The notes under the pieces were generated by a model that was given only the letters and a program-made list of their open reading frames with translations, had not been told where the DNA came from and searched no databases. This document shows, piece after piece, positions 8,071 through 64,000 of a DNA stretch of 64,000 nucleotides. The position numbers were made by a program, and so were the translations under genes. Numbering within the stretch: the first letter of the stretch is position 1; each line of letters starts with the position of its first letter. Source of the DNA: Ktedonobacterales bacterium. Its GTDB lineage: Bacteria; Chloroflexota; Ktedonobacteria; Ktedonobacterales; Ktedonobacteraceae. The stretch is taken from contig DAIDJF010000017.1 of assembly GCA_027451525.1 (NCBI GenBank), positions 19,651 through 83,650 on the forward strand, given 5' to 3'.

Positions 8071-10083
8071 ATGAGTTGCATTGGAACTGCTGGACATGTC
8101 GATCATGGCAAATCGACACTGGTTAAGGCCTTGACAGGCATTGACCCTGACCGTCTGGCGGAAGAGAAAGAGCGCGGCATGACGATTGACCTGGGTTTCG
8201 CCTGGCTCACGTTGCCAAGCGGGCGCGAGGTTAGTATCGTCGATGTGCCGGGCCATGAGAGCTTTATCAAGAATATGCTGGCGGGTGTGGGCGGCATCGA
8301 TGCCGCTCTGCTGGTCATCGCGGCCGATGAGGGGGTAATGCCCCAGACGCGCGAGCATCTGGCGATTCTTGATCTCTTGCGTGTGCCGCGTGGCGTAGTT
8401 GCCCTTACCAAAGCCGATCTTGTCGATGAGGAATGGCTAGAACTGGTTCGCGAAGAGATTGAGGAACTGCTCAAACCGACAACGCTGGCAGGCTCCGCGA
8501 TCATTCCCGTCTCGGCCTATACGCGCCAGGGGCTTCCGCAGCTTGTCGAGCAACTAGAGCGCGTGTTGCAAGAGGCGGAGCAACGGCAGAATATTGGGCG
8601 GCCCCGTCTGCCGATTGATCGCGTTTTCACGATGACTGGCTTCGGCACGGTTGTCACTGGCACACTGCTTGATGGCGTATTCAAGGTTGGGCAAGAGGTC
8701 GAAGTTTTGCCGAAAGGCACGAAGACGCGCATCCGTACCCTGCAAACCCATCGCCAGCAGATCGAAAGCGCGCAACCAGGGAGTCGCGTCGCTATCAATA
8801 TCGCGAATGTAGCACGCGGTGAATTGGAACGCGGCAATGTTGTCGCCCTACCGGGTCAGTTGCGTACTACCATGCTTTTCGATGCGCGTATTACGCTATT
8901 AAAGGATGCTGAGCGTTCCTTGCAGCACAATACCCTGGTGGATGTCTATAGTGGCTCACAGGAAATCTCAGCGCGTATTCGATTGCTTGAGGGCAATGAG
9001 TTGCAGCCTGGACAGAGTGGCTGGGCGCAGGTACGCTTGAGCGAGCCTGCAGTACTTGCACGACGCGACCGTTTCATTTTGCGCATCCCATCGCCGAGTG
9101 CCACAATTGGGGGTGGCGAAGTGGTAGATGTATTGCCGCGCTATCACCGTCGTCTACAACCTGCCGTGCTGGAGAATCTAGAACGTCTCTCGCACGGTTC
9201 GCCCGAAGAACTGGTATTGGCTGCTCTAGACCGCCACGCGGGAACGCGCACAGCTGTCAAGGGTGGGGTGGCCGCAAAGGCAGCAGTGCGCATTGAGGGC
9301 TATGAATTGGCTGAGATTGTAAAACAGTGTAATCTGGCTAGAGATGTGACATTCCTGACATTGACGACGTTATTATCTGAGAAGAGAGTACGTCATATTG
9401 GAGGTGAGGGAGAAGAAGGTGTCTGGTTTGCTCAGCATATTTGGGATGTAGTTGAAGAAGAGACGAACCGTGTTTTGAGCGATTACCATCGCCAGTATCC
9501 TATACGTAGTGGGCTGGCGAAAGAGGAATGGCGTGCCCGTCTGGGCCTCTCTTCCAAGGTAGCATCTCTGATCTTTCCGGTTTTACAGGCAGAAGGCCAC
9601 GTGGAGGTGGTCACAACTACGGCGGTGCCTGCCTCGTTCACGGGCACAACGTCGGGTGCTGGTGGGCTGATACGCTTGCCAGGATTTACGCCGCGTTTCT
9701 CCGAAAAACAGCAAGAGCAGATTGAACGGCTGCTCCGGCGTTTCCGAGAGAGTCCATTTACACCGCCTGGGCGGGCGGAGGCTGAAGCCAGTGTGGGGAC
9801 AGAGGTGGTTGCGGCATTGATCGAGCAAGGCCGTCTGGTGAAACTGGGCGATGGTATCCTGTTTCTACGCGAGACCTATGATGAGGCTGTGAACAGGTTA
9901 GTCGCATATCTACGTGAGCATACAAAGATGACGGCGGCTGAAGCCCGCGATATCTTAGGGGCAACGCGCAAATATATCCTGCCGCTCCTCGAACATATGG
10001 ATGCATTGCGTATTACAAGGCGTGTGGGTGATGAGCGTGTGTTGGGGATTGCAGCCGAGGCTCGTCAGAGCGAGATGCTCTGA
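8071..10083 (+). CDS. selB: Selenocysteine-specific translation elongation factor SelB
   Basis: [46 protein letters not shown]...[41 protein letters not shown]-terminal winged-helix region. Start moved to 8071 to match the conserved N-terminus. Confidence 0.95.
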
Positions 10084-62529: not shown

Positions 62530-62751
62530 GGCTGGCCTTCTATCAGTAGGATGCGAACTGGTTCATGTATGCCTCGGTTTTTGAGTTCTCTCCCCAACTC
62601 AGTAAGGTAACGTTCTATTTCTCACCTCTTCAGGACTTCCAGCCCCGGAAAATTAAATAGCCCTGAGCCTAAGCCGATAAAGAGAAATGATGAGCTGTGA
62701 TATGCTATACTTGATAGAGATTACGTGCGAATAGACCAGAAAGAGGATATC

Positions 62752-63252
62752 ATGACAGAACCATTCGAGTACATTTCACATGCCCGTCTTGTTTATAAAG
62801 ATGGTTATCGCAACGCCTATCTTGGCGACGTACCAGAACCCGTTGTCTATGGTGTGCAAGGTAAATTGCGCGAATATTATGGTGCGAAAGAAGGCCCACC
62901 CGTCGCTTCAACACTTGACCATATCGTGGCAGCCGTCGCTGGCTGAATGTACGGCACACTTGCCGGTGCCCTGTCAGGGCGCAAAATTCGTTATGATCGC
63001 CAGAGCTATACCGCTGAAGTCGATGGTCGCATTGTCGGCGTCGGCAAAACCATTCGCATCGAATCTATCGCCCTACACTATACCCTCACTATTCCTCCTG
63101 ATACACGCGAGGCTGCGATCCGCGCATTGCACATTCATCCAGAAGGGTGTCCCGCACATCAAAGCGTTAAAGACGCTATTACAATCACCTGGACAGCAAC
63201 GCTCCATGTCGGCGATGAGGTGCTCTCACTGAGTAGTAACCAGCAAGAGTAG
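62752..63252 (+). CDS. OsmC family peroxidase-like protein, candidate selenoprotein (TGA at 62944-62946 read as Sec)
   Basis: MTEPFEYISHARLVYKDGYRN...PPVASTLDHIVAAVAG-[TGA]-MYGTLAGALSGRKIRYDRQSYTAEVDG...HIHPEGCPAHQSVKDAITITW is in one frame. The TGA sits where OsmC proteins have the catalytic Cys. Confidence 0.8.
62960..62984 (+). promoter_or_regulatory. Candidate bacterial SECIS element
   Basis: uugc-cggu-GCCCU-GUC-AGGGC-gcaa: 5-bp upper stem, GUC loop beginning 26 nt after the TGA, 4-bp lower stem. Confidence 0.6.
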
Positions 63253-63364: not shown

Positions 63365-64000
63365 CTAAAACGTCAATAACGTCCCATCAGCTGGAATGAG
63401 CACGTGCGATGTAAGGTCTTCTTGCTCTATTCTCTTGCGCAACATAGCACGTGTCAACACGCAATGGTTGACGACTTCCATATGAACGGCGATCACTTGC
63501 GCTGTTGGTAACGCACGCACAACGGCACAAACATCATCGTCATTCATCGTAATCGGATCGCCAACCAGATACGTTGCGGCACCAGCGTTGACGATTACAA
63601 TCTCAGGCACGAAGGTCTCCAGTGCTTGCTGAACGCCCGCGTACCAGATTGTATCGCCTGCAATATACAGAGATGGCTCCCCCTCTGCTTGCACAACGAA
63701 GCCGGAAACAGGCCCCATCTTTTTGCCAATCTCGCCCGTTCCATGCTGTCCCTCGGTGCGGGAAATGTGTAGTCCATTCCACTCGCACTGATTGGTAATA
63801 GGAAACACCGCAGAGAAACCAGCCTGTTTGATGGCGGCTTCATCTTCCGGTTGGCAGAGAATGGGTAATGTTTTCGGCAGCAACTCAATTGCCCTGACAT
63901 CCCAGTGGTCGCGATGCGTATGAGTAACCAGTACACCATCCAATTGCGCAATCAGAGAACGTAATTCATTATCTGAGATAGGTAACTCGACCATTGGAAT
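63365..64000 (-). CDS. MBL-fold metallo-hydrolase, N-terminus cut by the right window edge
   Basis: DGVLVTHTHRDHWDVRAIELLP (HxHxDH-like), LYIAGDTIWY; frame open to the window end. Confidence 0.88.
   Translation of the reverse strand: MPMVELPISDNELRSLIAQLDGVLVTHTHRDHWDVRAIELLPKTLPILCQPEDEAAIKQAGFSAVFPITNQCEWNGLHISRTEGQHGTGEIGKKMGPVSGFVVQAEGEPSLYIAGDTIWYAGVQQALETFVPEIVIVNAGAATYLVGDPITMNDDDVCAVVRALPTAQVIAVHMEVVNHCVLTRAMLRKRIEQEDLTSHVLIPADGTLLTF

Follow-up and report, generated by a model that had tools for sequence, protein, structure and literature searches.

The locus considered here poses a plain question: does the TGA that divides an OsmC-like reading frame mark a gene in decay, or is it read as selenocysteine (Sec)? 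Within the window, the whole 64,000-nucleotide stretch of DNA that was analysed, two open reading frames (62725-62946 and 62947-63252) share one frame and are parted by a TGA at 62944-62946, as an earlier note on this DNA had claimed and as the window sequence confirms. They are one gene with one in-frame TGA. The evidence assembled below makes it very probable that 62752-63252 encodes an OsmC-fold selenoprotein of an undescribed lineage whose UGA is decoded with the help of a hairpin and SelB, and Sec insertion at UGA 62944-62946, taken by itself, is nearly certain. The relevant features are these:

8071..10083, plus strand (open frame from 7972): selB, the Sec-specific elongation factor, with a TIGR00475 match of 369.8 bits and SelB wing domains.
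62741..62746, plus strand: AGAGGA, a purine-rich, probable ribosome-binding sequence read from the letters, 5 nt before ATG 62752.
62752..63252, plus strand: gene of the proposed OsmC-family selenoprotein (Pfam OsmC, E 1.5e-10; AlphaFold/Foldseek; dN/dS on both sides of the TGA).
62944..62946, plus strand: in-frame TGA, very probably read as Sec, at the peroxidatic-Cys column of OsmC (TGA in 102 of 108 distinct relatives; Cys at the aligned position in 1UKK and in the relative L090).
62966..62982, plus strand: candidate SECIS hairpin, 62966-62972 paired with 62976-62982 around an apical GUC loop at 62973-62975 (conservation against synonymous resamples; covariation).
63148..63150, plus strand: TGT codon of the second, putatively resolving Cys, residue 133, in HPEGCPAHQSV (CP in 97 of 98 Sec relatives; aligned with the second Cys of 1UKK).

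Translation probably starts at ATG 62752, because relatives begin at the same Met (MAEPFEY) and AGAGGA lies just upstream. The product comprises 166 residues, with Sec as residue 65 and a TAG stop after the last codon (MTEPFEYISHARL...AAVAG-U-MYGTLAGAL...HPEGCPAHQSV...). The joined frames had been taken for a full OsmC-family protein, and they match Pfam PF02566 at 41.8 bits against a gathering cut-off of 27.5. An AlphaFold model of the joined protein (mean pLDDT 82.7) finds its best solved matches (PDB) in Foldseek among OsmC/Ohr structures. The model places Sec65 in the long central helix and Cys133 in the C-terminal part of an OsmC fold.

In Ohr and OsmC enzymes, the first of two cysteines attacks and the second resolves. 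Sec65 aligns with the first of these in the Thermus OsmC structure 1UKK, and the same column holds Cys in the genome's own Cys-type paralogues and in relative L090, in keeping with the earlier claim that the TGA falls at the conserved catalytic Cys. The partner Cys said to be kept downstream is there as well: Cys133 aligns with the second Cys of 1UKK and is followed by Pro in 97 of the 98 Sec sequences long enough to judge. The alignment of 1UKK with the joined protein has an E value of 0.009, which is weak as a sequence match alone. The protein thus shares its fold and two catalytic positions with the Ohr/OsmC thiol peroxidases (1UKK; OhrB, 6EBC; E. coli OsmC, 1NYE), but Sec here replaces the peroxidatic Cys, identity is only about 11-20%, and its relatives score under the cut-offs of the NCBIfam OsmC subfamilies. 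By analogy with Ohr/OsmC, attack would fall to Sec65 and resolution to Cys133. Bacterial Sec peroxiredoxins and GPX-like proteins also carry Sec in place of a thiol peroxidase's peroxidatic Cys. The swap is the same, but those proteins, according to general knowledge and a recent inventory (PMC13188914), have a thioredoxin fold rather than that of OsmC.

The TGA is kept far beyond this genome. When 101 relatives were searched, eight genomes matched, seven of them with a TGA inside the match. A scan of genome contigs added records from Methylomirabilota (Candidatus Rokuibacteriota) and Dehalococcoidia, and each of these has its TGA in the same position. Profile A1, built from 12 of the matching sequences, finds members in 40 of 399 Chloroflexota genomes and in 62 of 95 genomes of Methylomirabilota (the Rokuibacteriota phylum). 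Across the 108 distinct sequences from the two phyla, TGA occupies the exact Sec column in 102. The remaining six comprise L090, with TGC; L087, with TGG; L100 and L101, remote OsmC proteins with Cys that lie at the edge of detection, represent other OsmC families and were left out of the count of Cys forms; and two fragments that lack the column. The check proposed earlier, that homologues carry Cys or U at this column, therefore comes out in its favour, with TGA in 102 relatives and Cys in L090, 1UKK and the genome's Cys-type paralogues. L090 (G377:C243) is the only Cys form of what is here called the U-x-x-G-T family; Sec forms surround it in the tree, its hairpin has lost two of the seven pairs, and tRNA-Sec is present in its genome. 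It looks like a reversion from Sec to Cys.

The reading frame around the column is otherwise intact. Outside it, the 102 frames hold four TAA/TAG and four TGA codons in 15,319 codons, and those four TGAs lie at most four residues from the end of the matched stretch. Where it could be measured, dN/dS after the TGA is 0.04-0.39, and the part of the gene before the TGA likewise has a ratio well below 1. By this measure, the codons downstream of the TGA are under purifying selection. Ktedonobacteria bacterium brp13, whose genome is complete, has two copies (L012 and L017, G021:C1) separated by about 20 kb. A second copy in genome G019 (L018/L019, G019:C793) keeps the TGA, but one additional base within its SECIS segment puts the copy out of frame; it is either a pseudogene or an assembly error.

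Downstream of the TGA, the RNA carries a second layer of constraint. The hairpin described in the earlier note stood in part: GCCCU-GUC-AGGGC is present (62968-62980), and 26 nt separate the TGA from the start of its loop, but the uugc/gcaa lower stem is not the conserved part, the minimum-energy and conserved form being a continuous 7-bp stem (62966-62972/62976-62982). Folding and pairing were judged against synonymous resampling of each gene with the codon use of its own clade. By that null, folding is strongest in the 42 nt right after the TGA, and this holds separately for three subclades (mean z -2.0, -1.2 and -0.75). The complete seven-pair stem is present in 86% of sequences in both the MYG and the LTG subclade, where the null gives 2% and 4%, respectively. 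The MTG subclade is less regular, with all seven pairs in 19% and the inner five in 77% (null 3%). The covariation score of the stem is 0.280 (33 non-redundant sequences), compared with 0.142 after shuffling, and none of 500 shuffles scores as high; slid versions of the stem reach at most 0.080. RNAalifold alone predicts only the inner four pairs.

The third base of an invariant Ala codon in the stem is mostly C opposite G and G opposite C, and it is A in the single case of an opposing U with an otherwise intact stem. In the sequences compared, this silent position follows the amino-acid change across the stem. For most gene pairs, dS is lower in the 17 codons after the TGA than in those on either side; with the nearest relative, it is 0.08 there, compared with 0.45 before and 0.71 after. 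Apical loops read GUC, GGC or GGA, or AGC in part of the MTG subclade, and begin with G throughout the MYG and LTG subclades. The SECIS of the same genome's selD has GGCCCUGGC in common with the OsmC hairpin, a weak yardstick given how poorly the two align.

The machinery for Sec insertion is complete. The selB gene claimed at 8071-10083 scores 369.8 bits against a TIGR00475 cut-off of 242. The search of the remaining genome that the earlier note had called for found all three missing parts: a tRNA-Sec with anticodon TCA (C53:12580-12674, 64.8 bits), selA on C3 (596 bits) and selD on C2 (375 bits); Rfam reports one tRNA only in the window. The selD gene (G000:C2:127940-128869, L042) has its own in-frame TGA near the N-terminus, in the catalytic region, and the SelD of this genome is probably itself a selenoprotein. 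Above-cut-off tRNA-Sec genes occur in all 24 checked Chloroflexota genomes that have the TGA form and are at least 90% complete. Among Methylomirabilota, they occur in 50 of 62 genomes with the Sec-OsmC family and 29 of 33 without it. Co-occurrence with tRNA-Sec was accordingly set aside as proof of Sec, nearly all genomes of both phyla having this tRNA.

The comparative evidence indicates that the UGA has been kept and is recoded. In the proposed pathway, Sec-tRNA(UCA) would be made by SelA and SelD, and SelB carrying it would bind the hairpin at 62966-62982 and decode UGA 62944-62946 as selenocysteine, giving the 166-residue protein. The Sec65 selenol would then attack a (hydro)peroxide or a similar oxidised substrate, as the fold and active site suggest. 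Cys133 would resolve the resulting selenenic acid to a selenenylsulfide, which a dithiol such as a lipoyl protein or thioredoxin might in turn reduce. A hydroperoxide-reductase role, proposed on the basis of the fold and its two active-site residues, is modestly favoured. The gene neighbourhood of the 21 loci compared gives no pointer to function. ORF clustering at these loci found no conserved gene partner beyond close relatives, and clusters that span many of them consist for the most part of ORFs antisense to the OsmC gene or of fragments of it. In the window, a gene for a metallo-beta-lactamase-fold hydrolase (63365-63994, minus strand) adjoins the OsmC gene in convergent orientation; this neighbour is not conserved.

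Other accounts of the TGA must be set against Sec insertion. It could be a nonsense mutation, or a misread TGC or TGT, in a dying OsmC gene. The earlier note had named simple decay as the main competitor, pointing to nonsense mutations in nearby genes, and broken copies of the family do exist, such as the frameshifted one in G019:C793. However, TGA at the same column in 102 distinct sequences of two phyla rules out both a sequencing error and a private nonsense mutation. Downstream dN/dS values far below 1, the near absence of other internal stops and the concentration of silent-site constraint at the hairpin also contradict decay. Refuted by the TGA relatives and the dN/dS values, this account retains hardly any credibility.

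Alternatively, the UGA might be read through or reassigned to Trp, Gly or Cys without selenium, or the two halves might work as separate polypeptides. The TGG (Trp) at the column of L087 (G312:C49) would fit reassignment, and an ATG at 62947, directly after the TGA of the window, would fit a restart. L087, however, is a fragment with a broken upstream frame; its genome is nearly complete and has tRNA-Sec. OsmC relatives have Cys rather than Trp at this column. The genome uses the standard code, since selA and the other OsmC genes are open without TGA, and both a SECIS-like hairpin and a full Sec machinery are present. A restart is not conserved, because the codon after the TGA in the LTG subclade is CTG, CTC, CTT or TTG, mostly not a start. 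Decoding without selenium, or as two polypeptides, is consequently most improbable, and Sec insertion remains the preferred reading.

Whether the protein is new is a separate matter, since OsmC selenoproteins have been described before. OsmC-like selenoproteins with the motif UxxT were reported from the Sargasso Sea in three sequences (PMC1088965) and again from the GOS data (PMC2398784). A 2026 inventory has a single OsmC entry, also UxxT (PMC13188914), and the deep-Sep families (PMC12013277), in the form in which that inventory lists them, include no OsmC. NCBIfam NF041052 corresponds to this published family: among the members above its cut-off that the searches here brought up, FULLTQL or something similar is the usual reading, and nearly all have TGA. 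They share with the 62752-63252 protein the OsmC fold, a Sec that replaces the first catalytic Cys, a bacterial SECIS just downstream and the second Cys. Together with the common Pfam family, these likenesses could make the protein merely another member of the UxxT family.

Several observations speak against such membership. The protein scores 21.9 bits against NF041052, whose curated cut-off is 95, and its MYG relatives score 21.2 and 19 bits; the LTG members and the Cys relative tested gave no match. The motif differs as well, U-M-Y-G-T placing its T at +4 rather than +3, and the lineage as a whole has U-M-Y-G-T, U-M-T-G-T or U-L-T-G-T where NF041052 has UxxT (FULLTQL). In a tree of 122 sequences, whose long branches leave the deep order uncertain, strongly supported branches part NF041052 from the U-x-x-G-T family, and Cys paralogues of the same genome fall between them. 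Finally, both kinds coexist in single genomes: that of the window holds NF041052 in Cys form (L178, G000:C8:95038-95463) beside its Sec-form U-x-x-G-T gene, and in G079, G110 and G323 both families carry Sec. NF041052, a Cys form here, is carried with TGA in relatives of the phylum. On the strength of the scores, the tree and this coexistence, a distinct subfamily is indicated, and membership in the published family is very unlikely. The earlier remark that OsmC selenoproteins were already known is right in general, but the protein belongs to a different OsmC subfamily from the published one. The U-x-x-G-T proteins appear to form a second, distinct Sec-OsmC lineage, undescribed as far as the literature covered here extends; a deep-learning survey of groundwater MAGs cited in PMC13188914 may list it.

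Members of this lineage occur in Chloroflexota and Methylomirabilota, and nearly all of them have Sec. The Ktedonobacteria copies nest inside a largely Methylomirabilota clade of the 122-sequence tree, which suggests gene transfer between soil phyla. A broader scenario is tentative and somewhat doubtful on balance: this second OsmC selenoprotein family may have gained Sec independently of the known one, become almost obligately Sec, passed between Methylomirabilota and Chloroflexota, and come to serve a substrate that needs a selenol and is not handled by the Cys OsmC paralogues of the same cells.

Annotation pipelines would probably split these genes or call them pseudogenes, since no NCBIfam model covers the members tested. 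With this lineage, the prokaryotic selenoproteome would gain a widespread and almost exclusively Sec-containing branch, with representatives among uncultured soil lineages and in the complete brp13 genome. In cells that hold both Cys OsmC paralogues and the Sec form, the contribution of selenium to a thiol peroxidase could be tested directly.
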